Shown piece by piece: positions 3,857 to 24,420 of a stretch of DNA of 33,221 nt (positions are counted from its first letter, which is position 1; each line of letters opens with the position of its first letter). Made by a program: the position numbers and the translations under genes. Origin of the DNA: Tannerella sp. (GTDB lineage Bacteria; Bacteroidota; Bacteroidia; Bacteroidales; Tannerellaceae); contig JAITJX010000159.1 in the NCBI GenBank assembly GCA_031278765.1, forward strand, positions 1-33,221. Reading direction: 5' to 3'. A model generated the notes under the pieces. That model worked only from the letters and a program-made list of their open reading frames with translations. It was not told where the DNA came from and made no database searches.

Positions 3857-6800
3857 CTACTGTTTTGCAATAATTTTAATATTTGCTTCGGTTACTTTTC
3901 TGTCGGAAATGGTTGTTGGGCTGCCAAACAATATTTCTTCGCCCTGTCCGGTCTTGGGAAACGCGATAACTTCTCTTATTGACGATTTCTCCTCTAATAT
4001 CATTATAAGTCTGTCTATACCCCATGCAATACCTCCATGAGGAGGAGCGCCATACTGAAAAGCGTCAAGCATGTGTCCTATACTTTTTTGCATACTTTGC
4101 CAATCATATCCCATATTATGATATGTGGCTTCAAGAATATCCCGTTTATGCGCACGGATTGACCCGCCTCCAATCTCATAACCGTTGAGAATCAAGTCAT
4201 ATTGTTGGGCAATTACGTTTTCAAGATTTATCCCGTTCAAATGGTCTTGCAAACACTCGTTTTTTGGCATTGAGAACGGATTATGCGAAAAAGTCCATGT
4301 GTCCTCTTCTGTTTTTTCATACTGGGGGAAATCTACTACCCACGCAGGATGTAGTTCTCCGGGCTTAATCAGATTTAATATTTTACCCAATTCCTGGCGT
4401 ACTGCGTTCAAAGTGTTATTGGCCGTTTTATAATCGGATGCAGCAAAAAAGATAATATCTCCAACTATGGATTCTGTTACATCAATAATTTCCTGACAAA
4501 TCTGTTCGCCCAGATATTTGATAATTGGGGATTGTAATTCATCTTCCTTCACAATAATATAAGCCAATCCTTCTAATCCGTTTTGTCGAGCGATTTCAGT
4601 AAGTTTCTCTACTTGGCTCTTTGTAATTCTTTTATCAGATAACTTGCCTGAAACCTTAATGCACTTAACAATCCCACCATTTTCTATTGGTTTTGCAAAG
4701 ACATTGAACGACGTTTTTTTGACAATATCAGTTATATCAGCCATCTCCAATGCAAAACGCAGGTCGGGACGGTCAGAGCCATATTTGTCCATTGCGTCTT
4801 TATACGTTAAAATCCTGAACGGATATAATTTCCAGTTTTTCGGATATATTTGAGTAACAATCTCATTAAATAGATTGGTATTCAATGTTATAACATCCTG
4901 CATGCTAACAAACGACATTTCCATGTCAAGTTGAGTAAATTCAGCCTGCCTGTCCCCTCTTGAATCTTCGTCCCTGAAGCATCGCGCAAGCTGAAAATAA
5001 CGTTCAAATCCGCTAACCATTAACATCTGCTTATATTGCTGCGGAGACTGTGGCAATGAATAGAATTTGCCGGGAAACTTACGACTTGGAACAATAAATT
5101 CTCTTGCGCCCTCATCTGTACCGGCTGATAGTATTGGGGTTTCAATCTCAATAAAATTGTTGTTATTAAGAATTTCTCGTATTAAATGAAGCACACGATG
5201 GCGATTAACGATTGTTTTATGCATTGAAGGGTTTCTATGGTCGAGAAATTTATATCTCAACCGCACTGCCTCGGTTATTTTATTCGATTTCCGTATCTCA
5301 AACGGTAAGGGTTGAGAAAGGTTGAGAATTTCAATCTGTTTGGTATCAATTTCAATTTCTCCTGTTCGGATTTTTGTATTATAATCCTCCAGATTGCGTT
5401 TAACAATTCTACCGGATACCATAATAACCGACTCGTTGGGTAATTTTGCAATGTCATCGAAGTTGTCTGTGTTATTTCTAGTAATTCGCACTTGGAAAGT
5501 TTCCTGACTCGAATCCCGCAAATCAATAAAAATCAACTTGCCATGGTCGCGCACGCTGGCTACCCAACCTGCCAGAACAACTTCTTCATTCAAGTTGATG
5601 ATTGATATTTCTGAAATAATATGCGTACGGTACTGTTCTTTAACTATTACAACGTCCGAGTCTATGACCTTTGTTTGGATAGTCTTAACTTCTGATTCGT
5701 TACTTTTTTTGATGACCGAAGAGGCTGACGGTTGTTTGATTGACAATTTCTCGATAATTTTCTGTTTGATAATTTTTCCTGAAACCGACTTGCCTGTAAG
5801 TTGAATAGTACTGCCGACCAAAATATTGATTCCAGACATATTGCCTGCTTCGATTTCTTTGGTAATTGACTGATATTGAAGCAATACTTCATCAATTTTC
5901 TTGTTTATATCTTCATCAGAAACGCTTTTGCTTTCAATAAAAGACTTGTAGTCAAAAGATTTGCTTTTTATTAATTCAGTTATAGCCTCTTGAAGCGCCA
6001 ATACCGAAATTCGTTGTGCTTTCAGCGCTTCGAAAATGAAACAAACAGCGTCAATATTTTCGATTGCTTCATATTCTTCGCTTTTGATATTGTTCAATAA
6101 AGTCTTTGCAACAAAGAGAGGGGCGTTTAATCCGGCATTTATAGCCATAAACAAAGACGACCTCATTGAATCTGATGTAAAGAATTTTGCGTCTTGAGGG
6201 CGGATGCCAGATTTTATTAGAATCGTTTCGATAGCAAAGGGTAATGTTTGGTCATCAACAACTGTGGACTCAACCGTTTGCTCAATGTTCACGAGTGGAT
6301 TATCAGGGTCAAGGGCGAAGCGATAATCAGCAGCAAACTCTTTTTTACGCATAGTTTTGGTACGCTTTGTGTCAGAATCAAATAAGACTGTCGTCTGGTC
6401 CGGTCTGAAACTCTTTTGCTTAACATAATAATCCAACTGCTTTTCAACCTCATCAATTACGGCTTCGAGCATAAACTTAAATGAGTTCAGGTTCTTTATT
6501 TCCGCTCTCGGATTTAGTGTCATGTCTCCGATTTTTCTCAATGACACGCTGACATCTGATTTGAACTCTCCTTTTTCGAGGTTGGCTTCAGAGATACTCA
6601 AAGACTGAACGATTCGTTGTAGTGTTTGAGCATATATCGGCACATCCGCGATTTCGTTGATACAAGGTTTTGTTACCACCTCAATTAATGGCACACCTGA
6701 CTTGTTGAAATCAACAAGGGTTTGAGTCGATTCATGTACTAATTTTGCTGCATCTTCCTCGATATGAGCCTGCTCTAATTGCACAGAGAATACCGATCCA

Positions 6801-7171
6801 TCGTTTCTGTAACATTGAACAAAACCATCCGGGATAACGGGTTTTTGAAACTGAGTAAGTTGATAATTTTTGGGCAAGTCGGGATATTCGTAGTGCTTTC
6901 TATCCCAACATATTATTTTGTTTCTAAAAGACGAATGGACTGCTTTGCCAAAAAGGATTGCTTTTTTGACAGCCTCTCGGTTAACTATCGGCAGGATTCC
7001 CATCTGACCTGTACAAATCGGGCAAATGTGCGTATTTGGAATGTCTGCTTCCGAGTTTGGACATGAGCAAAACAATTTTGTGGCAGTATTCAGTCGAACA
7101 TGCGTTTCAAGTCCCATAACGACCTCAAGGTCTAATGCTTTTAATTTTTTTGTTATCGTCTTTATGTCCAT
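3857..7171 (-). CDS. Fusion protein: Asp/Glu-tRNA amidotransferase subunit B (GatB, ~aa 1-476) + aspartyl-tRNA synthetase (~aa 512-1104)
   Basis: GatB: GLETHVRLNT, FCSCPN...CPICTGQMG, DYRFALDPDNPLV and a YqeY-like tail (LVGSTIQLTGKSVSGKIIKQKI). AspRS: OB-fold WVASVRDHGKLIFIDLRD, LPQSPQQYKQMLM, motif 2 FRDEDSRGDRQAEFTQLDMEMSF, GAD-type insert, motif 3 GGIAWGIDRLIMIL. One uninterrupted ORF. Confidence 0.95.
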   Translation of the reverse strand: MDIKTITKKLKALDLEVVMGLETHVRLNTATKLFCSCPNSEADIPNTHICPICTGQMGILPIVNREAVKKAILFGKAVHSSFRNKIICWDRKHYEYPDLPKNYQLTQFQKPVIPDGFVQCYRNDGSVFSVQLEQAHIEEDAAKLVHESTQTLVDFNKSGVPLIEVVTKPCINEIADVPIYAQTLQRIVQSLSISEANLEKGEFKSDVSVSLRKIGDMTLNPRAEIKNLNSFKFMLEAVIDEVEKQLDYYVKQKSFRPDQTTVLFDSDTKRTKTMRKKEFAADYRFALDPDNPLVNIEQTVESTVVDDQTLPFAIETILIKSGIRPQDAKFFTSDSMRSSLFMAINAGLNAPLFVAKTLLNNIKSEEYEAIENIDAVCFIFEALKAQRISVLALQEAITELIKSKSFDYKSFIESKSVSDEDINKKIDEVLLQYQSITKEIEAGNMSGINILVGSTIQLTGKSVSGKIIKQKIIEKLSIKQPSASSVIKKSNESEVKTIQTKVIDSDVVIVKEQYRTHIISEISIINLNEEVVLAGWVASVRDHGKLIFIDLRDSSQETFQVRITRNNTDNFDDIAKLPNESVIMVSGRIVKRNLEDYNTKIRTGEIEIDTKQIEILNLSQPLPFEIRKSNKITEAVRLRYKFLDHRNPSMHKTIVNRHRVLHLIREILNNNNFIEIETPILSAGTDEGAREFIVPSRKFPGKFYSLPQSPQQYKQMLMVSGFERYFQLARCFRDEDSRGDRQAEFTQLDMEMSFVSMQDVITLNTNLFNEIVTQIYPKNWKLYPFRILTYKDAMDKYGSDRPDLRFALEMADITDIVKKTSFNVFAKPIENGGIVKCIKVSGKLSDKRITKSQVEKLTEIARQNGLEGLAYIIVKEDELQSPIIKYLGEQICQEIIDVTESIVGDIIFFAASDYKTANNTLNAVRQELGKILNLIKPGELHPAWVVDFPQYEKTEEDTWTFSHNPFSMPKNECLQDHLNGINLENVIAQQYDLILNGYEIGGGSIRAHKRDILEATYHNMGYDWQSMQKSIGHMLDAFQYGAPPHGGIAWGIDRLIMILEEKSSIREVIAFPKTGQGEEILFGSPTTISDRKVTEANIKIIAKQ

Positions 7172-7175
7172 ATCA

Positions 7176-8573
7176 TTAAACCTCCTCTAAATATTTTGCA
7201 AATGAAAGAATCAAATCCTCGCGATTTTTGGCGGCAGTAATCTGAATACCTGTTCCGGTAAACAATGGCGCCGTAAGTGTCGGCAAGCCTCCCAGACTAA
7301 ACCCTACTGTATAAGCATCCGAAAGGTACATAGACAATGGATCATCCAAACTTCGTCCTGTTGCAGGAGGCAACGTAGTCGAAACCGGCGAAAGAATGAT
7401 ATTAACCTTTTCAAAATCACGATTGAAAGCAGCAACAATGTTGTTTCTTATCATTCTCGCTTTTAGATATATTTCTTCTTCGTGTCCTTGAGACAGCACT
7501 TGATTACCTCCAATAATGCGTCTCTTTGTTTCTTCCGTGAAATTTTCGGAACGTGTTATCATATAACTTTCGCGTATGTTTTTGCTATTGGTTCTCGCGC
7601 CATAAACCGAACCGTCTAATCGAGCAAGATTTGAAGCCGTTTCAGCCATAGCCAATACATAATAGGTTGAAACAAGAATATCTGTATCGAAGAAATCTAA
7701 CGGCACAACTTTTATACCTTGACCAACTATGGTTTCTATCATTTTTTGAAAGTCATTTTTAATTCGGGTGTCCAAATATTCGTTCTCAATGAAGTTCTTG
7801 TAATACCCAACAGTAAAGTTGAATTTATCAGGATTGAATACGTCGTCGGAGACTGGCGATGAAGCGTAAGTGGTCTGGTCGTGTATATCTTTCCCACTCA
7901 TGGTGTTAATTAAAATACGAATATCCTCCAGAGATGAAGCGACAGGTCCAACGCAGTCGGTTGATGAGGCATATGCCATAATTCCGTAGCGAGATACACG
8001 TCCGTAAGTCGGTTTCAAACCGTATATCCTGTTATATCCTGCCGGTTGCCTTATGGAACCTCCCGTATCGCCACCAACTGAAAAAGTTGTATAGCCTCTG
8101 GCAACGTTCACAGCGCTTCCTCCACTTGAACCACCTGCAACTTTGCTCTTGTCAAGAGCATTATATACCGTTCCGAAAACTGTGTTTTCGCTTGTGCTTC
8201 CATGACCAAAACAGTCGCAATTTTCTTTTACAATCGGTATTGCGCCTGCATCCATGAGTTTCTTGATAGCAGTTGCGGTATAAGGCGCTTTGTAGTTTTT
8301 AAGAAAATCCGAACTGCCGGAAGCCACAGTGCCTTGCAGGAGTATAACATCTTTGATACCGAAAGGAATACCTTCCAGCAATCCAATCTCTGCTCCTGTT
8401 TTTATCTTCATGTCAACCTTATCAGCCAGTGCTATGGCATTCTCTTCCAACAGCAAGTTCGCAGAATGGTATTCGTTATTGTGTAACAACGAAAGCCGTT
8501 CCTGAACAATATCACGGCAAGTACGTTTACTGGATACGAATTGCTGATGTATGTCGTGTATCTCTGACTTCAT
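7176..8573 (-). CDS. gatA: Asp/Glu-tRNA amidotransferase subunit A
   Basis: Amidase signature: GIPFGIKDV, VAGGSSGGSAVNVA, GGDTGGSIRQPAGYNRIYGLKPTYGRVSRYGIMAYASSTDCVGP. Confidence 0.95.
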   Translation of the reverse strand: MKSEIHDIHQQFVSSKRTCRDIVQERLSLLHNNEYHSANLLLEENAIALADKVDMKIKTGAEIGLLEGIPFGIKDVILLQGTVASGSSDFLKNYKAPYTATAIKKLMDAGAIPIVKENCDCFGHGSTSENTVFGTVYNALDKSKVAGGSSGGSAVNVARGYTTFSVGGDTGGSIRQPAGYNRIYGLKPTYGRVSRYGIMAYASSTDCVGPVASSLEDIRILINTMSGKDIHDQTTYASSPVSDDVFNPDKFNFTVGYYKNFIENEYLDTRIKNDFQKMIETIVGQGIKVVPLDFFDTDILVSTYYVLAMAETASNLARLDGSVYGARTNSKNIRESYMITRSENFTEETKRRIIGGNQVLSQGHEEEIYLKARMIRNNIVAAFNRDFEKVNIILSPVSTTLPPATGRSLDDPLSMYLSDAYTVGFSLGGLPTLTAPLFTGTGIQITAAKNREDLILSFAKYLEEV

Positions 8574-8576
8574 CTT

Positions 8577-8852
8577 TTATTCTTCAATTACTTTGGGTAC
8601 AACTAAATAATTATTCTTGACAACGGGAAAATTGTCAATTATTGTCTGTCGCTCCGATTCGGACGATTCAATCACAACGTCGTCTCGCAAATCGTTTAAG
8701 GACACTGCGCTATCCATCATAAGTTCAACAAAATCAACTTTGTTTTGCCCCGATACTGCCGCCCGAACTTTACCGAACAGTTTATCAACCGATTCGGATG
8801 AAGTGGCATCTTTAATATTTGACAGGACTTCTAATGACATTAATTTACTCAT
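8577..8852 (-). CDS. gatC: Asp/Glu-tRNA amidotransferase subunit C
   Basis: GatC-like C-terminus NFPVVKNNYLVVPKVIEE; located directly upstream of gatA. Confidence 0.8.
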   Translation of the reverse strand: MSKLMSLEVLSNIKDATSSESVDKLFGKVRAAVSGQNKVDFVELMMDSAVSLNDLRDDVVIESSESERQTIIDNFPVVKNNYLVVPKVIEE

Positions 8853-11290
8853 ATTATTGCTTTTAACCGGTTCTTGATTCTCTCTTTTGCCGAATCATAC
8901 GTCTTCTCCGTCTTAAAGTAGTTTTTATCGGGGATAATGTATTTTAAATTATCTTTCAGTTCTTTGATACGTCTGTACATTTTCTTTTTTGACGCTTGCG
9001 AACGGAACTGAACACCTGCCATAATAGCCGACTTTAGATACTTCAAATCATCTGTTTTACTATCATAATGTCCCAATAAATAGGCGCATTTTATCATGAT
9101 TTCGGCAAGCGACATATCTCCTGCAAAAAGGACTCCTTCGTTAATGAAATGTCCGGCAACCTCATATTCAACATCAGGGATCTGATGCTGTACTTGAGAT
9201 GTTAGAATTACAATATTGTTTTTGGCAATTGCATCTATTGCAAAATCCATGGGAGAATATTCATGCTTCTTTTTTTCTTCTGCCCTGATTTCATGTTCTT
9301 TGTCGTTTCTTTCTTCAGGAACCTTCAGTTCATATTGATAGGGGATGTTCCCTGCGCCAAAACCAATCAAAATAAAGACTGATGGTTTATCTTCGACGCT
9401 TAAATCCAGATACTTTTGATATAGTGTTTTTGATGTAAACGGGCTACATAATATCGGATATACACGGCAAGAGTCTTCTTTCAACTCTTCAATATCTGCT
9501 GCAATCTGGTTTTTATTGTTTATATCTTTAAGCCGTTGTAAAATTTCACTATATACTAACGGATTCATTTCTGACGAGTCTATTCTTACAACTTCCTTTG
9601 AAATGAACTTTGCAAATAGTGGCATTTTCTTGTCTTCCGGATTCCTGTATTTTGATGATTCCGACTTAAAAAACTTTTCCATTGCCGAGAATGAAGGTTT
9701 GCCCGAAGTACCGCCGCTTTTTGACATGGCAATAGTTCCTCCAGTCCTCAGCAAGTATAACTCGTCAAGACAGTTGCTATATGACAGCAGTTTCTCCTCA
9801 GTTTCCATTTCATCCCAATTATAACGGGCTATGATTTCGCCATCGAAAGCATCTACATCCCATATATTGACTTTTTTGAGATTATTACCCAGAAATTTTT
9901 TCCCCATATCAAAAGCAACTCCAATTTGTGGATTGACAAACTGATTAAGATAGTACAGTGCAGAAATCATATTATCAGGAGCATCAGATGGGGCAAATTC
10001 CGATTTTAGTGATATTTGAGAGCCGGTCAAGGCTATACTGCATTTCAAATCTTTAACGCAATATTGCAACAGGCTTAGAGTCCAAGCCATTGTATCAGTT
10101 CCGTGCGATAATAAAACGCCAACTTTATTGTGATAGGCCCCTTCTTTTCGAAGGATATCTTTAATATCCTGACTAACTGTGCCAATATTCCTGATTTCCC
10201 TCTTTGAATGTGAATTGTCGGTTGATTCAACGGCAACATAACCAGACAAGATTTCACCAAAATCATTCGTGAACTTTTTCAGATTTTCCTTGTTTTTGGT
10301 TACGGAAAAAATGGCAATTGATGTAGGCATGACGCCATATTGAACTTTCAGATGTTTTAAAATGTTAATTCCTCCATTATCAACAACTGATTGTTGTTGT
10401 TGATATTCTTCTACATATTTTAACTTATTCTCATCAATGTTTTCTTTTGATGTAAATTCTTTTTTACAGATTGGACATACATTCTTATCTTTTTTGCTTA
10501 TTTCATTACCTGTTTGGTCATAATTAATATCCAAAAGCACGATGTCCAATATTTCACTGGATTTCAACCATTTAAAAATATTTAGCTCGTTGCCATTGTA
10601 ATTCAGATTCATATCGTATGGAAAATCTATTACCTTATAAATTTGATTATTCGACTCTTCTTTGTTCAATTCAACTTCTAATTGACATTTAAAATGTGAA
10701 GCATGGTCGTCAATGACTCCTATTGGATGATATTCCGGAAGTTGTCGGTATGATACCCGCCTTACCTCATCTCGTTTCTCATCAATAAGATCAAAATTAA
10801 CAAATTCAGACACGGGTATTTTAATCTTGTTGCCGTTCTCTAACGGAAGCCGGAAATAAGAAAAGTCGAAGTACCGTAAGATATTCTCATATCCTGCTTC
10901 GTGTGAATATATTTTCGCCAATTTTTCCTTGACTTTATCTTCCGGTAAGAAACCAAACAGGATGATTGGCTCGTCGTTGCGGATTTTGTTTGTACAGCGA
11001 AGAGCCACCGCCAATTCAATACCAGGCAAATCGCTGCGTTTGTCTTGCTCGGCATAAGTTAACTCTGTGTTGATGATGTATGTAACAGCCGATGTATCTC
11101 GGCTGTCGTCATACAATTCGGATAGCAACGACAAAGCGCCGAAAGAACACCCTCTGGTATCGAAGCATTTAATCTTCTGCGCAACTTTGGATTTCTCAGA
11201 ATTAAACGAATCTTCAAATTCAAATGACTTGTGTTCGACGACGATAGTTTGAGCAAAGTCGTTATTGTCGGATATAATACGGTAATTCAT
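8849..11290 (-). CDS. Multidomain protein: receiver-like N-terminal domain + response-regulator receiver + L-asparaginase (type I/GatD-like) with swapped block order
   Basis: REC: GVIDDHASH, LDIVLLDINYD, GINILKHLK, IAIFSVTK. Asparaginase: SHGTDTMAWTLSLLQY...LTGSQ (~aa 395-424), RTGGTIAMSKSGG (~515-527), RIDSSEMNP (~569-577), GFGAGNIP (~643-650), VEYEVAGHFINEGVLFAGDM. Confidence 0.85.
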   Translation of the reverse strand: MNYRIISDNNDFAQTIVVEHKSFEFEDSFNSEKSKVAQKIKCFDTRGCSFGALSLLSELYDDSRDTSAVTYIINTELTYAEQDKRSDLPGIELAVALRCTNKIRNDEPIILFGFLPEDKVKEKLAKIYSHEAGYENILRYFDFSYFRLPLENGNKIKIPVSEFVNFDLIDEKRDEVRRVSYRQLPEYHPIGVIDDHASHFKCQLEVELNKEESNNQIYKVIDFPYDMNLNYNGNELNIFKWLKSSEILDIVLLDINYDQTGNEISKKDKNVCPICKKEFTSKENIDENKLKYVEEYQQQQSVVDNGGINILKHLKVQYGVMPTSIAIFSVTKNKENLKKFTNDFGEILSGYVAVESTDNSHSKREIRNIGTVSQDIKDILRKEGAYHNKVGVLLSHGTDTMAWTLSLLQYCVKDLKCSIALTGSQISLKSEFAPSDAPDNMISALYYLNQFVNPQIGVAFDMGKKFLGNNLKKVNIWDVDAFDGEIIARYNWDEMETEEKLLSYSNCLDELYLLRTGGTIAMSKSGGTSGKPSFSAMEKFFKSESSKYRNPEDKKMPLFAKFISKEVVRIDSSEMNPLVYSEILQRLKDINNKNQIAADIEELKEDSCRVYPILCSPFTSKTLYQKYLDLSVEDKPSVFILIGFGAGNIPYQYELKVPEERNDKEHEIRAEEKKKHEYSPMDFAIDAIAKNNIVILTSQVQHQIPDVEYEVAGHFINEGVLFAGDMSLAEIMIKCAYLLGHYDSKTDDLKYLKSAIMAGVQFRSQASKKKMYRRIKELKDNLKYIIPDKNYFKTEKTYDSAKERIKNRLKAII

Positions 11291-11310: not shown

Positions 11311-12057
11311 TTAATACTCTACTTGAATCAACAACTTATCTCTCAAGATAGACAACTCCTCTGTCATGTATTTATCTTCGGAAGGGTTACTTTCCAATAT
11401 ACCTCCAATTCCTGTAATATCAATTCCTGCTTCTTTCAATCTATCAAAATTTGCCTGTTCAGGTTGCTTTCCCAAACAACCATGCAAAAATTTAAGAACG
11501 GCTTCTATTTTTTCGGGATAAATCCAATTGGCAATTTCATTGAATGCTACGTTGAATTTGTCGACATCGAACTTGCCGTTAAATTTGTTGGCATCGAACT
11601 CGCCGCCGTTATCGTTGCTTGACCAAGATTTTATAATTTCTTTCAGATAAGGGTAGCCCGCATCTTCACTATTCTCGTGCCGCCCTTTTTTCTTTTTCTT
11701 GAAACTACTTAGTATAGACCCAACAGCGTTTTCATCGTTTGCTCTTCCTAACCTTGTATGGTACATCACATAAGTATTGTCTGTGCTGGACAAGGACAAA
11801 ATACACTCTGCCCAATCTTTAAATTCAATATGGTCAGAAATGAGCAAAATATCCCACTTATCTGTTTCTTTAACAGCATCAGACAACTTCACGCCTTTTG
11901 TTTGTGAAATCAGTAAATAATTTCTCAGTCTTGAAATGTAAGGAGTTGATGTATACAGAAATTTTTTACGAAAATCATCGCATTCTTCTCCTAATCCAAT
12001 ATCTTTAATTTTACTATGTTTCTTTATACTAACAATAAAAATAATTTTTTTATCCAT
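11311..12057 (-). CDS. Hypothetical protein; possibly receiver-like N-terminal fold
   Basis: Intact ORF in a tight operon; KKIIFIVSIKK and WDILLISDHIEF resemble alternating beta strands. Confidence 0.65.
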   Translation of the reverse strand: MDKKIIFIVSIKKHSKIKDIGLGEECDDFRKKFLYTSTPYISRLRNYLLISQTKGVKLSDAVKETDKWDILLISDHIEFKDWAECILSLSSTDNTYVMYHTRLGRANDENAVGSILSSFKKKKKGRHENSEDAGYPYLKEIIKSWSSNDNGGEFDANKFNGKFDVDKFNVAFNEIANWIYPEKIEAVLKFLHGCLGKQPEQANFDRLKEAGIDITGIGGILESNPSEDKYMTEELSILRDKLLIQVEY

Positions 12058-12064
12058 AATGATA

Positions 12065-15000
12065 TTATTTTGAAGTTAATTTTCTTGCACTGTATATTGC
12101 TTCCGTTAATGGAAATTTATGCTGCCTGTCAGTCATATATTGCTGCACGACAGAGAAATTCAGATAACGAATATTATCCGGCAAATTATTCGGCTTGCCT
12201 CGCCCAGAAATCACAACTATACGGTCGTAATAATCCTGTTTATCTGTTATAGCCACTTCTTTGAATACTATATCTCTAATAAAATTTTCTACGCCTTTTT
12301 TGTCGGTGTCGTCGTAATGTGCTCCCTTATATGACTTTATCATTTTTTCGAGTATGCTAAGATGTATAACCACAAAGTCGGTATTTTTAATATCTTCATT
12401 GATGTATTTGATTATATCCGAATAATTATTATCAAAATTTTGTTCATTCAGGTTAATTTTTAGTTCGCTATGGTAAACGGATTGAGCTTTTACAGAAGAG
12501 GAACATTTATATTCTTGTAATTTGTATTCTTTTGTAACAGGCACAAAAATATTATTAAATTGATAAAGGGTATAATAATCAATATGTTCAGGGTTACCCA
12601 ACTTTATTTCCGCTTTGTTCCATTTTGCTTTATATTGTTCCCCAATGGCGTGGGACTGTATTCGCTCGTCTATGACTTTAATACGCACACAGCAATTCAA
12701 TCCCCTTATTATGTTTAGAAATATTTCTTTTTCTGCTTTTCTTCCAAAATCTCCTCCTTCTTTAACATTCCACGGCGTTGTTGAAGACCTTTCTACTACT
12801 TTATATTTATTATTTTTTATTGTCCAATATGCAAGTTCGTTATGCGAACTACTGCAACCTTCATAGTATTTCAAGTATTTTTTGTCAGTTTCTTTAGGTC
12901 CTTCGTCATCTACTCCTATTTTTTTTGATTCTTCTACAAACATAATCCAGCAATCATATATTATATCTTTCCATTCTGTTTTGGTAATCTTTTCAACCCC
13001 ATCAACCCCACTTTTTGGTACTACTATCCTGCGGCTCAATGCAGGATTGTTTGACAAATCAAGGTCAGTATAATTTACAACCAAGCGATGTGGGTATATT
13101 TTTTTTAATGGTAATGGTTTTACTTCATGATTCTCATTATTAATTTCATTTTCGTTTAAAAAGTCTTTGGATGAAATTATCTTGATACCGTGCTTTAACA
13201 ACTCTTTCTTCTTTTCTTCATGCGTTGAACTAACTCCATTTCCAAAAATATCCTTATCGTCTCCCACAATCAGCACTTCTCGTGGTTTATACGCAAAGAA
13301 ACGATAAGCAAGGTAATTTTTCTCATTTTCTTGGCGCTTGTACGCTCTGAAAATGCCCAGTCGTTTTTCATTTTTTATTTCTTTGATAAAATACGAGTCT
13401 GTTTCTGTGAGTATTTCATGCTCTTCTCTTTTTTCATTTTTGTAAAGCGGCACTGTATACTCTTCGTGTTCAATCTCTTCCATTGGAATTTTACGCAAGT
13501 ATGTTGCCGATGCTTCCATTTCCAGCAAGCCCCAACCTCTTTGCCGCAACGTATTGCTTTTGCGGTCGATAACCGATTTGTTTATCTGTCGGTTTTGCTT
13601 GTGAACAAGCCAGTCGATATTGTTGATTTCTTTGGTTCCTTCTTCTTTGTCTTCAACCCAAATATCTGTATCTTCATCATCGCCCTGGTTGTTTTTCTTA
13701 ATCTTTGTATTGCCTGTAATATTATTCTTGATAATAATAGAAACGGCAAGCATCTCATTTACATCATCTTCCTTGCATTCTCCATCTTGGCATTCAGGAA
13801 TATCTTCGACTTTTAATTGAATAATAACGGGAGAGGTTTTTGTTGTTGCTACGCTTCCGTGTTTTACGAGGTTGCGTATCAGGTTTTCCAAGATAGTATA
13901 AAAAGCGTGATTGCCAAGCACATCGCCCGGAATGGCAAAAATTTTATTTTTGCTGTCATCATCATACTCAAATTTATAATAAAAATTTTCAATCCCGCTG
14001 ATAGTATCAACAAGAAGTCGGTTTTTCAGGAATCCATCCATAATATCGCCGAGCGTTGCGGATGTTTCCATAACTGGCGTACCCGTAGTGATGTCGCCGA
14101 TATAGTCAAAACGGACTTTGATGTAGTTGATAAGTGTAATAATATCTTCCAAACCGTGAAACTTATTGCTTTTCAATTCACTAAGGGCTATGGAAATTTT
14201 ATCATTAAGTCCATTCACCGTGCTGGCATTAAAATTGTTGAGAGTTATGCTAACTTCGTTGAAAACATTACTAACCGCTTGGATAAGTTCATCGAAGTTT
14301 TGGCTATTTTTTTCTTTGTTTTGCCCAGCAAGGCATTGACAATATTCGTGATTGTAAATTTGAAGGTTGTAGAAAAGCGTATTCTTAATCAGATTAACAA
14401 CCTTTACCAAAACGTGGCTGCCGATATTATGGCTGAGGTTGCGAGCCATAACTTGGGCAAGGGAGGCGCGGACGGCGATTTGAATAGTATTTTCTTCTTT
14501 TATGCGAAGAATAACAAAAAAAGTAAGTTTATTGATGAATATTTTAAGTTGCTTTAGAAAAATTTGTATTTCTTTCTTTTGTTCTGTGTTCTTCATGTCG
14601 CATTCTATTCCTATGTTAGCAGTTACAACATAAGGTTGTAATTTTTCTTCTTCAATAGAACCGAAAAAAACAGGTCCGACTAAAAAGAAAAAGTGAGTAA
14701 CATTGTTATCTTCATTTTCTTCTAAGGTATAACAGCTTTTTAGGGCATTTAACCAAGCTATAAATTTTGGTTTTAATGAATCATCTTTCTCTAAATATTC
14801 TCGTAAATTAGAGTCGTACACATAATTGTTATTTTCCTCAATGTGAGTGTGATATTCTGAGGAGGTAATTAATTCCGAGTTGAAACTAAACTCATATACT
14901 TCATCGAAAACTTTATTAGTTCTAAATATCAGCCCTATAGTTTCTGTCTTTTCTGTGTTAAAAATATCCTCACCCGAACCTATTAATATTTCATTTCTAT

Positions 15001-15286
15001 CAGTCGTAAATTTTTTTTTCTTGCCTATTCCGTGAAAATCCTTTTCAGAATGTATAAAATCCCCATAGAAAGCGATTTTACCTTTATCGCTTGCAACATT
15101 CCATATATTGAAATATTTTAGAAATTTAAAAATGCATTTTTCATCCTCATTAACTAATACTTTATTTTTCAATCTATTAAAAAATAATAAATTCCAATTG
15201 ACTGTAAATTTATTCTCTACATCCTTGACGAAATTCTCAAAAATTTCATCGAATATTTTATATTTATCATCAGATGGAGTATTCAT
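12065..15286 (-). CDS. Soluble GHKL-ATPase/histidine-kinase-like protein with C-terminal alpha/beta (receiver-like) region
   Basis: H-box-like MARNLSHNIGSHVL, N-box-like ILENLIRNLVKHG, G-box-like RGWGLLEMEA; later REVLIVGDDKD and DRIVVISGRGKPNNLP. No obvious TM helices. Confidence 0.8.
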   Translation of the reverse strand: MNTPSDDKYKIFDEIFENFVKDVENKFTVNWNLLFFNRLKNKVLVNEDEKCIFKFLKYFNIWNVASDKGKIAFYGDFIHSEKDFHGIGKKKKFTTDRNEILIGSGEDIFNTEKTETIGLIFRTNKVFDEVYEFSFNSELITSSEYHTHIEENNNYVYDSNLREYLEKDDSLKPKFIAWLNALKSCYTLEENEDNNVTHFFFLVGPVFFGSIEEEKLQPYVVTANIGIECDMKNTEQKKEIQIFLKQLKIFINKLTFFVILRIKEENTIQIAVRASLAQVMARNLSHNIGSHVLVKVVNLIKNTLFYNLQIYNHEYCQCLAGQNKEKNSQNFDELIQAVSNVFNEVSITLNNFNASTVNGLNDKISIALSELKSNKFHGLEDIITLINYIKVRFDYIGDITTGTPVMETSATLGDIMDGFLKNRLLVDTISGIENFYYKFEYDDDSKNKIFAIPGDVLGNHAFYTILENLIRNLVKHGSVATTKTSPVIIQLKVEDIPECQDGECKEDDVNEMLAVSIIIKNNITGNTKIKKNNQGDDEDTDIWVEDKEEGTKEINNIDWLVHKQNRQINKSVIDRKSNTLRQRGWGLLEMEASATYLRKIPMEEIEHEEYTVPLYKNEKREEHEILTETDSYFIKEIKNEKRLGIFRAYKRQENEKNYLAYRFFAYKPREVLIVGDDKDIFGNGVSSTHEEKKKELLKHGIKIISSKDFLNENEINNENHEVKPLPLKKIYPHRLVVNYTDLDLSNNPALSRRIVVPKSGVDGVEKITKTEWKDIIYDCWIMFVEESKKIGVDDEGPKETDKKYLKYYEGCSSSHNELAYWTIKNNKYKVVERSSTTPWNVKEGGDFGRKAEKEIFLNIIRGLNCCVRIKVIDERIQSHAIGEQYKAKWNKAEIKLGNPEHIDYYTLYQFNNIFVPVTKEYKLQEYKCSSSVKAQSVYHSELKINLNEQNFDNNYSDIIKYINEDIKNTDFVVIHLSILEKMIKSYKGAHYDDTDKKGVENFIRDIVFKEVAITDKQDYYDRIVVISGRGKPNNLPDNIRYLNFSVVQQYMTDRQHKFPLTEAIYSARKLTSK

Positions 15287-16290: not shown

Positions 16291-16550
16291 CGACATATAT
16301 ATAAATCAATGAGTTACGGTTTAATAGGATTAAGTTTAGCCGTATTATTTGCTCAAATCTAAACCTATTGTAAACCCTATTTAACATCCCTATTGCCTGG
16401 TTGGCTCTTTTTATTCCAATTTTTCGGTGTTCGGGTCCGTGCATACTGTTTTGTATAAACCAAAAAACGTATTCAACCCTCGCTCTTATTATGAGTTTTA
16501 TAGCCATAATGTCTTTCTTTGTTTTTTGTTACCCATCGAGCATCAATGTC
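16271..16550 (-). mobile_element. Decayed IS5-type (DDE) transposase remnant with internal deletion/frameshift
   Basis: DIDARWVTKNKERHYGYKTH (in the ABC ORF frame) followed in another frame by IIRARVEYVFWFIQNSMHGPEHRKIGIKRANQAIGMLNRVYNRFR, a typical IS5-type transposase C-terminus. Confidence 0.8.
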
Positions 16551-18128
16551 TTTTGTTTCTTCTAATTTATTTACTGTCATATAAAATTGTTTGGCTTCCC
16601 ATTCAAACAATCTATTATCGTGGGATACAATGATTATTATCTTTCTCTGTTCGGATAATTTGTAAAAGAAATTTCGTAATGTTTCCTCATTGTTATTATC
16701 CAATCCGCTCGACGGTTCATCAGCAAGTATAATATCGCTGTCTGAAATCAGAGCCATCATACAGGCAATTTTTTGTATTTGTCCTCCTGAAAGGTGGTCA
16801 ATTCGTTTTACCCATATACTTTTATCGGTTAAAAAATCGAAAGACAAGCCATATTTATCAATGGTTTTATTCACTTCCTTAATTAGACGATTAACACCTA
16901 ATATAGAGTATTTGCCAAATTCAGGAAGGATATTAATTACATTTTCAAATACGGTCATTTCCTTTGCGAAAATAGATATAGCTTCTTGCCTAAGGTAGAA
17001 AATACTGTTATTTGTACTGCTAAGTGTAATATCTCCTTTTTCGAGAGTGATTTCGTTATTAATCAATTTAAGAAGCGTTGTTTTTCCTACTCCATTCAAA
17101 CCGCATATGATATTAATGCCATTGCCAAATTGTGTGGAGAAATTCTGAAAAACAATCTTATTTTCATGATTAATATTATAACTGAAATCAATGTTTTGAA
17201 TGGAAATACTTTTATTTGTATTATTTTCAACATGAATTGTTTTGCGTGCTTTTTTCAGATTTATTTTTGCCACAGTCAAAATCAATGCGATACCAAAAAA
17301 TAATTTCCAATAGACCGGATTAGGAGTATATGCAATGATACATACTACCAAAATTTGGAACAACATTGAACCTAACAGTGCTTTTACTACCGAATTTTGC
17401 AATAGCGAAAAAAGATAATAATGCCTAATTATTTTTTCTTCATTCTTCTTTTTGTATCGGGCAATAATAAAGTCAATGAATTTATCGACCAACAAAAAAG
17501 AAGCCAGTGAATTGACAACAAAATCAAAGCCGCCGCCCGACCGGGCAACAGCTTCTTTGATTGCGTATCCAAAAGTACCATAACCGACGAGGATACCGGT
17601 AATAATAAATCCGAATGTTAATAATAACCGTTTATTTTCAATTGTATTCGCTTTTATATTTTCCCCAATTACTCTAATTGAAATACCTTGTTTTGTCCGA
17701 AAAAAAACATCAATTACAACAACAAGAACGATTGATATTATTGGCAACAATTTTGACAATTTATTAAAAAAGGCATAATTGTCGTTTGTCTTCAATGGTA
17801 ATGATTCTCCTATGGCAATAACCGATACGGCATACAATACCAACGAGAAGATAATACCGGCAAAAATGGCATTAATTTTAAATTCGTAAATTAATACCGA
17901 CAATAGCATATAGCATACTACCGAACAAGCAATAGCAGCAGAAACAGACAGCAATAATGAATTAGAAAAATTCCATGTTGCAACAAATGAAATGATACTG
18001 ACGATAGCCACTCCATCTATACTGATATCAATAATTTTTAGATTTTTGTATAATAATCCGATTCCTAACACAAAAGGCAACCAGAAAAATCCATTAACCA
18101 AACCTTCGGACAATACTTCCAAAAACAT
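16473..18128 (-). CDS. ABC transporter: TrpY-like permease fused to ATPase; C-terminal ~25 aa derived from a transposase remnant
   Basis: Multiple TM helices, then Walker A GLNGVGKTT, signature LSGGQ, Walker B IILADEPSSGLD, H-loop IIVSHD; tail ETKDIDARWVTKNKERHYGYKTH is transposase-like. Confidence 0.88.
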   Translation of the reverse strand: MFLEVLSEGLVNGFFWLPFVLGIGLLYKNLKIIDISIDGVAIVSIISFVATWNFSNSLLLSVSAAIACSVVCYMLLSVLIYEFKINAIFAGIIFSLVLYAVSVIAIGESLPLKTNDNYAFFNKLSKLLPIISIVLVVVIDVFFRTKQGISIRVIGENIKANTIENKRLLLTFGFIITGILVGYGTFGYAIKEAVARSGGGFDFVVNSLASFLLVDKFIDFIIARYKKKNEEKIIRHYYLFSLLQNSVVKALLGSMLFQILVVCIIAYTPNPVYWKLFFGIALILTVAKINLKKARKTIHVENNTNKSISIQNIDFSYNINHENKIVFQNFSTQFGNGINIICGLNGVGKTTLLKLINNEITLEKGDITLSSTNNSIFYLRQEAISIFAKEMTVFENVINILPEFGKYSILGVNRLIKEVNKTIDKYGLSFDFLTDKSIWVKRIDHLSGGQIQKIACMMALISDSDIILADEPSSGLDNNNEETLRNFFYKLSEQRKIIIIVSHDNRLFEWEAKQFYMTVNKLEETKDIDARWVTKNKERHYGYKTHNKSEG

Positions 18129-18134
18129 TCTTAT

Positions 18135-19109
18135 CTATAGATTAATTATTTGAGAAATATATTGTTCTGACAGTTTTATTTCTTTTTCTTCAAAGGTTTT
18201 GGAATTAATAAAGATATGAACATCTTTATCTTCTATTTCTACAATCGGCATCTGTTTTAAATCCTTGTGATTCTCATTAGCATCACGAATTATCTTACCA
18301 ATTAGTTTGCCAACTTCTTTATATTGAACAGACACAGCAAACATTATTCCGTCTTTAATTATTCCATCATCTAAACAGCATGAAATAACATTATTTTCAG
18401 AACAAAGTTTAGCAATGGTTGCCGCTTTTGTGGTTGCGCTTTTATCATGAGGGATAATTATTGCTTCTGCGCCATCTCTTATTAATTTGTTTGTTATATT
18501 ATACACATCTTCAGCAGAAGTTACTGCCCCCAATAAAGGCTTTGCGGACGATTTGGAAATTATATCAACAAATATGTTTTTCATATTTTTGGAGTTAATT
18601 TCCGCCTCGTTATAGATTATACCTATCTTTTTAGTAGCAGGCTTTATATCAAATATCACATTAACCAACTTTGAATAGGAAGAAAAAGGTACTTGGCTCA
18701 CAATATTTAATGGAAACTTTCGTGGTGGATTGATACCAAGTTCTTCCAATGCGCTAACCGAAGAAGGGATAGAGATAGACCCCGCAATGGTCGGCGGCAT
18801 TTTTGCTTGATACTTACCACTAAAAACACTTGTTACTACCTGCGAACCAATAGCCACAAAATAATTGGGTTTGGTTAATAAAGCTGCGTCAATAGCCGTG
18901 TTAAATTTTGACGCATCGCCTTCCGCACTAAATACTCTGGTATAATAAAGAGAATCCGTACAAACCTCTCGCAGTCCAGCTTCTATCTGTTTAAAAGCCT
19001 CAATAGAAGCGGGAATTACCATAGTAATAATCTTTTTATCATCAGTTTTACATGAAAACATAAAAACTAATGCTAAAATGCTGACCTGACTTGATTTTAA
19101 TACTTTCAT
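18135..19109 (-). CDS. ABC transporter substrate-binding lipoprotein, TrpX-like (ABC_sub_bind)
   Basis: Signal peptide with FSCK lipobox; AIGSQVVTSVF, KIGIIYNEAEINSKNM, DGAEAIIIPHDKSAT typical of the TrpX/PF04392 family. Confidence 0.85.
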   Translation of the reverse strand: MKVLKSSQVSILALVFMFSCKTDDKKIITMVIPASIEAFKQIEAGLREVCTDSLYYTRVFSAEGDASKFNTAIDAALLTKPNYFVAIGSQVVTSVFSGKYQAKMPPTIAGSISIPSSVSALEELGINPPRKFPLNIVSQVPFSSYSKLVNVIFDIKPATKKIGIIYNEAEINSKNMKNIFVDIISKSSAKPLLGAVTSAEDVYNITNKLIRDGAEAIIIPHDKSATTKAATIAKLCSENNVISCCLDDGIIKDGIMFAVSVQYKEVGKLIGKIIRDANENHKDLKQMPIVEIEDKDVHIFINSKTFEEKEIKLSEQYISQIINL

Positions 19110-19197: not shown

Positions 19198-20772
19198 TTA
19201 TAAATATATATTATGTATGGCAAGCCAAGCCTTTTCTTCAGGCAGTATTCCTACTGAAGGCAAATTATTAAGTTTCAAGCACAAATCGGAAAGAAATTTA
19301 TTTCTATTATTGTCTCCTTTCGTACTTCTGCCAAACTCTTTCATCGCCGCTTCTATGGACGTTATTTTGCTGCGTTTTCCATCAGAACCACGATAATTCT
19401 GAAATTTTGGAATGAATACCCTGTAAAAAATTCGCCGCGTTATCAGTAGCGATTCTATATCTTCCCTGATTTCAAGTATGGATTCGTCGGCTCTATAATC
19501 AAAGTAATTATTAACTTGCATAGAGATATTATGCTCAAAAGCAGCCCAATCTGCCGAATTTCTTTTTTCTGTGTATTGAGTTTTATAAGAGGGAAGCGTT
19601 TGATTCCTGCGAGTGGTGGTAACCCAATTTGCACAATTAGGAATAGAGCAAATCAATTCTGTTATTTGCTGTACCTTTTGCCGAATTATGGGAAGATATG
19701 AGTTCCACAATGCTTTGCTTTTCTCTTCTTCAAATGCCTTCTTGAAAACTTGATGGTCGCAAAGCAAGAGAGCATTCACATCATTAACACTCAAATTGTC
19801 GGTAATTGTAAGAGAAAACAGGGCATAGAAACGTTTTTTTGAGGCGTAATCCAATATTTCAAAGCCCAATCTATCCTGATGACGTTTGGAGTTGGGTTTT
19901 AGTAATTCCCAATCACAAATAAGGGCGCGATAATCGTTTTTTCCGTCTGCGTCAATCTCTTTGATAACATCGTTTACATCCTGAAAAGCGTGTACCTCAA
20001 AATATCGTTCCAGTTCAGTCCTTGCCCACCGTAATTCGTCATCCTTGTCTTCCAGTAAAAGAATTTTTTTCTTATTTTCATCTTGTGAGGTCAATTCGTT
20101 GCTTTGAAGCGTATTGAGTTTTTCAACTAATTTGTCTATGGCATCTTCAAACTCTTCGATATTGCCTCTGCCGTGTGCTGTCGTTATCTTTTCGACTATG
20201 TTTTTAAGTGTGGGAAAGATTGCCTGTTCGGAGAGTTGATTGATTTTTGCAAGAATCTGCTCAACTTCTTCTTTTACAGAACTGATGCGCAAATTATGGT
20301 TAATGCTTACAATCAGATTTTTAATATCTATCAGGTAGAGACGCAGAAAAGCCAGCGTTGCGGGTAGCAACGGCACGATTGGCGCAAAAGCGTTTTCTAT
20401 CCCGACCAGCGTAACAGGAAACTCACAAAAAGCCGTTCCCCGCACCGATACAATGTTGAATTTTACCGTTTCGTCGTTGTTCTTTTCAAAATAAGTCTGC
20501 GGCAAGAACGACAGTATGCACATCGGAGCAAGCATTTTTTTGTCTAAACGCATACTGATGGCAATGTCCAAGCCGTAAAAGTCGGAATATGGCTTGTCGT
20601 CCCATTGCAGTTCGGCAAAAATTACTATACGGTCGCAGATAGCGGAATTATCTCGAATGAACGCTTCCAATTCCTCTTCGGAGGTAACATAAAAACAATT
20701 CTTATCGGGTATTATTTCGTTCATGTAACGCCATTGGCAGTCATCGCATATTATCAGATAGCGGTTTTCCAT
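19198..20772 (-). CDS. Tandem receiver-like protein (N-terminal pseudo-receiver + receiver + conserved C-terminal helical domain)
   Basis: IVIFAELQWDDKPYSDFYGLDIAISMRL...CILSFLP; REC KKILLLEDKDDELRWA, YRALICDWELL, FSLT, VFKKAF; C-terminus LLITRRIFYRVF...LPEEKAWL. Confidence 0.75.
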   Translation of the reverse strand: MENRYLIICDDCQWRYMNEIIPDKNCFYVTSEEELEAFIRDNSAICDRIVIFAELQWDDKPYSDFYGLDIAISMRLDKKMLAPMCILSFLPQTYFEKNNDETVKFNIVSVRGTAFCEFPVTLVGIENAFAPIVPLLPATLAFLRLYLIDIKNLIVSINHNLRISSVKEEVEQILAKINQLSEQAIFPTLKNIVEKITTAHGRGNIEEFEDAIDKLVEKLNTLQSNELTSQDENKKKILLLEDKDDELRWARTELERYFEVHAFQDVNDVIKEIDADGKNDYRALICDWELLKPNSKRHQDRLGFEILDYASKKRFYALFSLTITDNLSVNDVNALLLCDHQVFKKAFEEEKSKALWNSYLPIIRQKVQQITELICSIPNCANWVTTTRRNQTLPSYKTQYTEKRNSADWAAFEHNISMQVNNYFDYRADESILEIREDIESLLITRRIFYRVFIPKFQNYRGSDGKRSKITSIEAAMKEFGRSTKGDNNRNKFLSDLCLKLNNLPSVGILPEEKAWLAIHNIYL

Positions 20773-20775
20773 TTT

Positions 20776-20958
20776 TTATAAAGTTGGATTAAATACCGGT
20801 CTTAAAAATACTCCCAAAAGGATATAGCCGCCGCAAGTATTGGCTATACTCACGACTGTTTCGTACAACGATTGTGGCACTTTTTCCTTCGCTTTCTTAA
20901 ATTCTATGGAAGCGTCCTCTCCCTGTGCTATTATTTTCTCTCTATCTTCGACTGTCAT
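20776..20958 (-). pseudogene. Truncated AlbA_2 (Schlafen-type) domain ORF
   Basis: GEDASIEFKKAKEKVPQSLYETVVSIANTCGGYILLGV matches the AlbA_2 N-terminal half, then a short unrelated tail and stop. Confidence 0.75.
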
Positions 20959-20978
20959 TGACTTTTAATTTGGGATTG

Positions 20979-20986
20979 CAAAGTTA
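20979..20986 (-). promoter_or_regulatory. Putative -7 element (TAACTTTG)
   Basis: TAnnTTTG followed by GCAATC, 20 bp upstream of the AlbA_2 fragment start. Confidence 0.45.
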
Positions 20987-21046
20987 TTAAATTTGAATGA
21001 ATCATTCATCACTGCCGCCATAATTCAATTAAATTAATTGTTAATA

Positions 21047-22099
21047 CTATTTTCCGTGAACAAATTGTCCTTTGGAATTAAGAATTGCGCCCAGACTCCC
21101 AAGTTCACAACTGAAATAACCGTTTCCTATGTAATCAATATCGTCGTATTTAGCCGGAATGATTACATTAAACTTTTCATCAAAAACGCCATAGCGGTCA
21201 TACAGGTAGAATTTGGTATATGCGCTTTTCTTTCCTTGCTTCTGGTAGCCGTCGTTATCGTATTTGTTTCCTTCCGCTACCGGCTCATACAGAGGTGTTG
21301 CAATTTCCTCGTAATCCATTTCATCTAACCACAGTTTGCTAATCACTTCTTTACCGTCGTAAGCGAGCAGATACTGTTTATGTCCATTTGCATAGTCTAA
21401 TTCGCCGACCATAATACCCAAATCAAACACTTCCAATCTGTCATATACCGGTGGTAAAACGATATGGAGCAAACTGTCGCACAAGCCGAGTTTACCGCTA
21501 AATTGAAGTTCTACAAAGCCGAAATCGTCAAAAGTAACATCGTCATATTGACAGGGTAAAAGCAACTTGCCGGTCGTATCAATCACGCCGAATTTTGAAT
21601 CTTTACCCGGCACGATACAGTAGCCGTTGTCTCGAAAAATATAATTGTAGTATAAATGTTGGTTTTCAAAATCGAACTGCGGCTCAATTGCCATTTTCCC
21701 AGTTTTTACATTCACAAAACCAAGTTTATTGCCGATTACTACTGCGGCTAACCCCAATTTCGGGTTGTCAATCCATGCGCGGTCAAATTGCGGTGCGAAT
21801 ATTTGTTTTCCGCTTTCAGTGGAAAGAAAGCCTCGCTTATTGCCTTTACAGATTACAAAAGACAGACAATCGTAACCGGAATCGAAACCCAAAATCATAT
21901 CAAACCTGTCGCCAACAACATTGCCCATAAAATCAATAATGGCGTATTCACCGTTATTGTACATTACAGAAGTCAAATGTTTCGCAATCATGTTGCGATC
22001 AACTTCCCCATACTTGTGTTTGTATAATTTTACACCATACACTATACCACTGATTAGCATGATGGCCAACATTGCGCTTGAAAAAATTCTCTTTATCAT
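21047..22099 (-). CDS. WG-repeat-containing protein with N-terminal signal/TM segment
   Basis: Repeated [KR].GF[LV]...G...[FI].PQFD and FGVIDTTGKLLLPCQYDDV units; ATG at 22099 preferred over the track start 22141, which overlaps the predicted promoter. Confidence 0.85.
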   Translation of the reverse strand: MIKRIFSSAMLAIMLISGIVYGVKLYKHKYGEVDRNMIAKHLTSVMYNNGEYAIIDFMGNVVGDRFDMILGFDSGYDCLSFVICKGNKRGFLSTESGKQIFAPQFDRAWIDNPKLGLAAVVIGNKLGFVNVKTGKMAIEPQFDFENQHLYYNYIFRDNGYCIVPGKDSKFGVIDTTGKLLLPCQYDDVTFDDFGFVELQFSGKLGLCDSLLHIVLPPVYDRLEVFDLGIMVGELDYANGHKQYLLAYDGKEVISKLWLDEMDYEEIATPLYEPVAEGNKYDNDGYQKQGKKSAYTKFYLYDRYGVFDEKFNVIIPAKYDDIDYIGNGYFSCELGSLGAILNSKGQFVHGK

Positions 22100-22138
22100 C
22101 TCTGTAAAAATTAAAATATTAATACCAAAATCCTGTTG

Positions 22139-22175
22139 CAAAATTATTGTTATGTAAATTATCCAAAATTACCTG
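22139..22175 (-). promoter_or_regulatory. Putative promoter: TTTTGGATAATTT-N9-TAATTTTGCAA
   Basis: -7 TAATTTTG at 22139-22146; same upstream 16-mer and same spacing as at 19134-19170. Confidence 0.6.
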
Positions 22176-22320
22176 TTCTGTTACCTGAAACGGGCAGAGT
22201 TTATGATTACCGAAATTTGTCCGTACCATAATATTTGAATAAAAATTATGGCACAAAGATACAACGTGTAAGGAAAGGGTTCTTTATGTATGTGTATATG
22301 GAAGTTTTTTGTATCTCGCG

Positions 22321-24180: not shown

Positions 24181-24420
24181 TTCTGATATCTGGTATTTCA
24201 CAGCGCAAAAGTACTCAAAAAAATCAACAGCGCCTCAAAGAAGATTTAACCGTATATTCTGAACGTTGCGACCGTCGGGATACGTCACATCGCCGGATTT
24301 TTTTTCCGAAAAAAAGTTTTTTCCTTGAGAAAAAAAGTTAAGATTTAAGATAATGACGGACACGTGAAAGCGCAATGACGGCAATGCGACAGGGCGACGG
24401 CGCGACGGGGAAGCGACATG

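Follow-up and report, generated by a model that had tools for sequence, protein, structure and literature searches.

A class 1 asparaginase with a permuted N-terminal domain, encoded beside tRNA-amidation genes in Tannerella

A contig of a Tannerella sp. (JAITJX010000159.1) encodes an asparaginase of the PF00710 family in which the conserved blocks run B-A-C rather than in the canonical order, A-B-C. We refer to the whole stretch of 33,221 nucleotides that was analyzed as the window. The same order recurs in other bacteria as one clade, the catalytic residues are invariant across it, and the PF00710 match becomes a single one when the canonical order is restored. We consider it probable that the protein is a permuted, signal-controlled asparaginase that is coupled, in the window, to tRNA-dependent asparagine synthesis; here we infer the activity, the control by a receiver, and the coupling. 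The parts of the gene are as follows.

8849 to 11290, minus strand: permuted (B-A-C) asparaginase open reading frame (ORF) behind an N-terminal signalling-like region; 813 amino acids, uninterrupted (Pfam).
10811 to 11290, minus strand: residues 1 to 160, EL-x-(Y/W)...SD-x-x-GI-x-LA-x-x-LR...PI-x-x-x-x-FL, resembling by motif the inactive-receiver-like proteins at 22321 to 24201 and 19198 to 20772.
10226 to 10735, minus strand: residues 186 to 355, whose resemblance to a receiver is solely by motif (IDDH ... LLDI ... FSV) and which contain a CPIC insertion.
9776 to 10135, minus strand: block B, canonical residues about 75 to 170 (HGTDT, TGSQ, the catalytic Lys, and DAF), ahead of block A (Pfam, pattern, profile, and tree alignment).
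9872 to 9874, minus strand: K473, counterpart of the catalytic Lys K162 of EcAII (alignment), invariant in 11 of 11 sequences.
9512 to 9775, minus strand: block A, the canonical N terminus (TGGTIAM ... DSSEM; pattern, Pfam, profile, and tree alignment).
8852 to 9511, minus strand: block C, Asparaginase_C-like (GFGAGNIP, SQV, EYE, GDMS, and LLGH, with a C-terminal extension); PF17763, E = 9.7e-7 for the isolated domain.

Some 380 residues precede the catalytic domain. HGTDT occupies residues 396 to 400 (DNA position 10105 downwards) and is followed by TGSQ, the segment of the catalytic lysine, and DAF, all of which come before TGGTI at residues 516 to 520 (DNA position 9745 downwards). DSS then lies at residues 571 to 573, and block C begins at about residue 594. 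Pfam reports PF00710 as two separate stretches (81.8 bits, above the cut-off of 22.5), the better of which covers profile positions 72 to 171, with PF17763 after them; on the C-terminal domain, PF17763 scores 29.2 bits against a cut-off of 34.6 that other family members pass (L006, 48.1; L017, 53.4). The window DNA has a single occurrence of the pattern HGTDT-N{338,368}-TGGTI where 0.00 are expected; this, together with the recurrence of the order in other genomes, excludes chance. Alignments with the canonical asparaginases of Bacteroidota relatives (L002, L003, and L005) are confined to block B. The sequence-only reading, which had placed the HGTDT block before the TGGTIA block and block C last, is confirmed in this by Pfam, by the pattern, and by recurrence. 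Its span for the gene, 8849 to 10153, misses the start of the ORF, which lies far upstream at 11290. It was right that both threonines, the aspartate, and a lysine are kept, since all four are invariant; the lysine that it named, before TGSQ, is the wrong one, the catalytic residue being K473 in GNNLKKVNIW, after TGSQ.

The change is a circular permutation limited to the N-terminal domain, with the C-terminal domain still last. B-A-C is no rotation of A-B-C, yet B-A within the N-terminal domain is; the earlier statement that this is not a simple circular permutation therefore holds for the whole chain and fails for the N-terminal domain taken alone. When A-B-C order was restored in silico, the two PF00710 stretches of the window protein merged into one and the score rose from 81.8 to 91.3 bits. 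Restoring the order in two further B-A-C proteins raised it from 69.9 to 79.8 and from 73.9 to 85.1 bits, so that the gain is about 10 bits in each of the three proteins, and the block-by-block comparison with PF00710 that had been proposed comes out in favor of the permutation. A profile of the family aligns with solved asparaginases in three pieces of shuffled order: profile positions 234 to 303 match chain positions 2 to 71, positions 108 to 203 match 75 to 166, and positions 283 to 438 match 167 to 324.

For the distribution of the family, we searched 85,462 species genomes for the DNA pattern of HGTDT, then 338 to 368 bases, then TGGTI. It was found at 14 places, 13 of which translate to B-A-C asparaginases in several lineages; the sequence-only reading had proposed a search for such homologs.

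L012, L013, and L015 to L019: B-A-C, Acidobacteriota (order-pattern search, translated).
L021 and L022: B-A-C, Thermoanaerobaculaceae (order-pattern search, translated).
L011: B-A-C, Aminicenantes (order-pattern search, translated).
L020, L023, and L024: B-A-C, Bacteroidales (order-pattern search, translated).

Because the CAT-codon form of the pattern lay outside this search, the family is undercounted and 13 is a lower bound. Outside the window, B-A-C asparaginases, often fused to a signalling domain, occur in no fewer than a dozen further bacteria, which belong to two or three phyla. L014 was rejected as a member, since the enzyme that matches the pattern there is canonical (a tandem or fused canonical reading was considered), as were three matches in viral contigs, which are chance matches in unrelated ORFs. 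The possibility of an assembly rearrangement, which would have undone the earlier reading, is contradicted by the same order in several independent assemblies (13 of the 14 places), and we reject an assembly artefact on that ground.

Among 199 sampled Acidobacteriota genomes, 10 have a B-A-C asparaginase. In the window's own family (125 genomes), the sole other member found is a stand-alone protein of 388 amino acids from the same genus (G400). Among 295 genomes of the order, 396 of the phylum, and 395 of the class, the search recovered, apart from the window itself, only canonical type I enzymes that align over block B. No viral or plasmid relatives were found, and such an origin was rejected. 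In a tree of re-ordered sequences, 13 B-A-C sequences are split from eight canonical ones by a branch with support of 100/99, and this single clade fits one origin; the window's branch is long (1.61) and its placement is unsure. A check of 12 carrier genomes for canonical PF00710 proteins at E ≤ 1e-8 found none in 11 of them, which leaves the B-A-C enzyme as the sole PF00710 protein found there. The remaining carrier (G1135) has one canonical PF00710 protein besides, and relatives that do not have the permuted form (G373, G320, and G105) have canonical enzymes. It is suggestive, and no more than that because several carrier genomes are incomplete metagenome-assembled genomes, that the B-A-C enzyme serves as its genome's one class 1 asparaginase. 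In the Bacteroidales genome G1135, a second asparaginase-family protein (L100, 462 amino acids) has an extra N-terminal domain and looks GatD-like by eye. A Cas2-like gene and large ORFs, also recognized by eye, adjoin one Acidobacteriota permuted gene (L013:2988-6145).

Thr398, Asp399, Lys473, and Thr519 (window numbering) are identical in 11 of 11 B-A-C sequences, and Asp571-Ser572-Ser573 is kept in each of the ten that are long enough to include it. The predicted structure of the window's catalytic domain is poor (pLDDT 58.3, pTM 0.58); that of an Acidobacteriota member (L017) is confident (pLDDT 86.6, pTM 0.89), and the best Protein Data Bank matches of both models are L-asparaginases and GatD. 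For L017, target-normalised TM-scores from Foldseek are about 0.6 with high rmsd, limited because Foldseek aligns in chain order; such scores fit a permuted chain and are no proof of active-site geometry. Structure prediction thus supports an asparaginase-like fold for the B-A-C family, in line with the earlier suggestion that the rewired blocks may still fold. The enzyme most likely hydrolyzes L-asparagine to aspartate and ammonia.

The sequence-only reading also linked a receiver to the new N terminus, and this stands for the family and by motif only for the window. In L017, a PF00072 receiver precedes the catalytic domain (E = 1.3e-10), and an N-terminal receiver is present in many Acidobacteriota members, in varying states. 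In the window ORF, Pfam reported no PF00072, hhalign gave a probability of 1.8%, and pairwise comparison failed to show a receiver; residues 1 to 160 match the protein at 22321 to 24201 weakly (BLASTP, E = 0.07). Receiver control is not shared by the whole family: the receivers of several members are degenerate (L011 and L022), and other members stand alone (L006 and L115). The B-A-C proteins of G400 and G1135 have no receiver.

All genes from 24201 down to 3857 run in one direction. The kinase-like gene, the 248-amino-acid protein, the asparaginase, gatC, gatA, and gatB::aspS are separated by gaps of 7, 20, -4, 3, and 4 bases.

22321 to 24201, minus strand: inactive-receiver-like protein (PF22563 iREC, E = 3.5e-4, below cut-off).
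21047 to 22141, minus strand: WG-repeat protein of the same co-directional cluster.
19198 to 20772, minus strand: inactive-receiver-like protein by motif, in the same co-directional cluster.
12065 to 15286, minus strand: putative histidine-kinase-like protein, 1073 amino acids, motif ARNLSHNIGSHV; homologues in L059 and L096.
11311 to 12057, minus strand: 248-amino-acid protein of unassigned function, no Pfam match over cut-off; L059 and L096 each have a counterpart directly after their kinase-like gene.
8577 to 8852, minus strand: gatC-like gene, 91 amino acids (TIGR00135, E = 2.9e-6, below cut-off), with a 4-base overlap with the end of the asparaginase ORF.
7176 to 8573, minus strand: gatA, 465 amino acids (PF01425, E = 1e-103; TIGR00132, 411 bits against a cut-off of 481), with the Lys/cis-Ser/Ser triad present by alignment.
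3857 to 7171, minus strand: GatB::AspRS fusion, 1104 amino acids, with a bacterial-type, GAD-containing AspRS (NCBIfam, PF02938 GAD).

In the fusion, residues 14 to 477 match GatB (NF004012, 373.8 bits, cut-off 338; TIGR00133, 332.6 bits, cut-off 314.8) and residues 512 to 1102 match AspRS (NF001750, 722 bits, cut-off 443). The GatC and GatA proteins score below their equivalog cut-offs (27.5 against 47.1 bits and 411 against 481 bits, respectively), though gene order, the GatA Pfam family, and the triad fit GatCAB. GatB was found in three of the 125 family genomes, always fused to AspRS: the window genome, G400 (L057:223-3534), and G381 (L063:6675-10016). No GatB-AspRS fusion was found in the accessible portions of the open-access literature. 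The G400 protein is 72% identical to the window's over the fusion; the GatA homologue beside it (L057:3535-4848) has lost the Lys, the cis-Ser, and the nucleophile Ser while the operon is retained, so ammonia there would need another source. The window GatA looks intact and may make its own. The B-A-C asparaginase of G400 is on a different contig from its gat-aspS operon, and in G381, which also has the operon, no asparaginase was detected. Both genomes have an AsnRS alongside the fusion, which makes the indirect route to Asn-tRNA an extra there. In the stretches read around Acidobacteriota B-A-C genes, there were no gat genes or kinase; the coupling to tRNA amidation is therefore local to the window operon, in one genome. 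A long ORF that resembles glutamine synthetase by eye directly follows gatCA-gatB::aspS in G381 (L063:9940-12219), a possible amide-nitrogen link. In G000 (contig C113, L052:6431-8225), a class II synthetase scores 247.5 bits against the AsnRS cut-off of 342.6, and a separate OB-fold protein of 150 amino acids precedes it.

The genes upstream of the asparaginase in the window resemble a signalling cassette. The kinase is named by its motif, since the protein at 12065 to 15286 has no Pfam kinase match, and the gene order of the cluster from 19198 to 24201 is the same in L059. There (G320), the cassette of kinase-like gene, small partner, and inactive-receiver-like proteins stands with two radical-SAM proteins, and in L096 (G052) it is followed by TyrRS and by an enzyme that resembles tyrosine decarboxylase (PF00579 and PF21391). 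Given these other outputs, the asparaginase/Asn-tRNA operon looks like one output among several. Also inside the cluster (16473 to 19109), a permease fused to an ABC ATPase (16473 to 18128) has as its neighbor a substrate-binding lipoprotein that resembles TrpX (71.5 bits, cut-off 390), and the two are possibly an amino-acid importer.

These observations suggest a course of events in which the permutation would set a new N terminus directly before the HGTDT strand, with its catalytic Thr-Asp pair, at the place where the receiver is fused, so that phosphorylation could gate the active site. The histidine-kinase-like/inactive-receiver cassette may control the operon in the window genome, and the asparaginase may supply aspartate and ammonia to the GatB::AspRS machinery. 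The GatC-GatA-(GatB::AspRS) assembly would make Asp-tRNA(Asn) and amidate it to Asn-tRNA(Asn), and translation could continue, or be fed, while free asparagine is consumed. In its most specific form, which we offer tentatively and as possible but doubtful, a phospho-gated permuted asparaginase would be the aspartate-and-ammonia source of a fused transamidosome and would control how much asparagine goes to the free pool and how much to Asn-tRNA(Asn), the permutation being kept so that a signalling domain acts directly on the HGTDT strand.

Other explanations account for parts of these data. A plain catabolic or acid-resistance asparaginase (asparagine to aspartate and ammonia), with the synthetase and amidotransferase genes serving as an amino-acid sensor or as back-up charging in the manner of tyrS, is unlikely in our view. 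The B-A-C enzyme is the sole PF00710 protein found in most carriers, tyrS in the tyramine cluster of Enterococcus is responsive both to tyrosine and to acid pH (PMC3315439), and in G052 the kinase-like cassette precedes TyrRS and the decarboxylase-like enzyme; this last parallel comes from one genome, however, and a three-subunit amidotransferase exceeds what a sensor needs. We give somewhat less credence to a GatD-like role, in which the asparaginase, as a subunit of the tRNA amidotransferase, would produce the ammonia and replace or assist GatA. GatD (1zq1) is among the top structural and profile matches, the gene overlaps translationally with gatC, and G400 combines a GatA that is catalytically dead by its residues with a B-A-C enzyme. 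Yet the window protein scores 54.3 bits against the TIGR02153 equivalog cut-off of 324, it has no GatD N-terminal domain, the window GatA is intact, and the stretches read around the Acidobacteriota members show no gat genes linked to them.

Patchy occurrence, swappable outputs behind the cassette (radical-SAM in L059, TyrRS/decarboxylase in L096), and inactive-receiver-like partners would also suit a regulated conflict or defence system, in which infection leads the cassette to activate the asparaginase and starve translation of asparagine, the tRNA-dependent route conferring self-immunity. PADLOC 2.0.0 gave no credible match to known defence systems, there were no phage or plasmid matches, and the Acidobacteriota enzyme is seemingly its genomes' only asparaginase of that class, all of which make this reading improbable. 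It is more improbable still that the protein is a pseudo-enzyme or an artefact: the long branch and poor model of the window domain could be so read, but the ORF and its catalytic residues are intact and independent assemblies agree. A permuted, signal-controlled asparaginase coupled to tRNA-dependent asparagine synthesis remains our preferred reading.

L-asparaginase is both a drug and a textbook enzyme, and we found no natural permuted enzyme of class 1 among 5.39 million open-access papers. A natural B-A-C lineage indicates that the asparaginase fold evidently tolerates this chain order, and it could serve directly as a scaffold for building asparaginases that carry a regulatory domain at a new terminus. 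It also exposes a blind spot of annotation, as profile tools report the B-A-C enzyme as an ordinary asparaginase in fragments, and in the window operon the idea that signalling controls tRNA-dependent amino-acid synthesis can be put to the test.

Compared with class 1 type I L-asparaginases (AnsA; archaeal 1wls, 5ot0, and 9ufq; PF00710 with PF17763), the B-A-C enzymes share all block motifs, the catalytic Thr/Thr/Asp/Lys set, the C-terminal domain, and the predicted fold, and differ in having block A after block B and in the N-terminal fusion; identity to L017 in structural alignments is about 20 to 26%. The GatD of archaeal GatDE (1zq1 and 2d6f), a top structural match, is likewise an asparaginase-like amidase with a GatB-family partner, but GatD keeps the canonical order and has its own N-terminal domain, whereas the window protein falls below the equivalog cut-off and lies beside GatCAB, not GatE. 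The bacterial indirect route, in which a nondiscriminating AspRS acts with GatCAB, occurs beside AsnRS in Bdellovibrio (PMC4206432), much as relatives of the window genome have AspRS and GatCAB and keep AsnRS; here, by contrast, GatB and AspRS share one chain and an asparaginase lies within the operon. The AspRS-GatC fusion modeled by NF009460 is another known fusion and differs from GatB-AspRS. The tyramine (tyrS-tdcA) cluster (PMC3315439) similarly sets an aminoacyl-tRNA synthetase next to an enzyme that consumes the same amino acid, although the amino acid is another one, the cluster has no amidotransferase, and its control is by a T-box, as against the two-component-like control proposed for the window operon.
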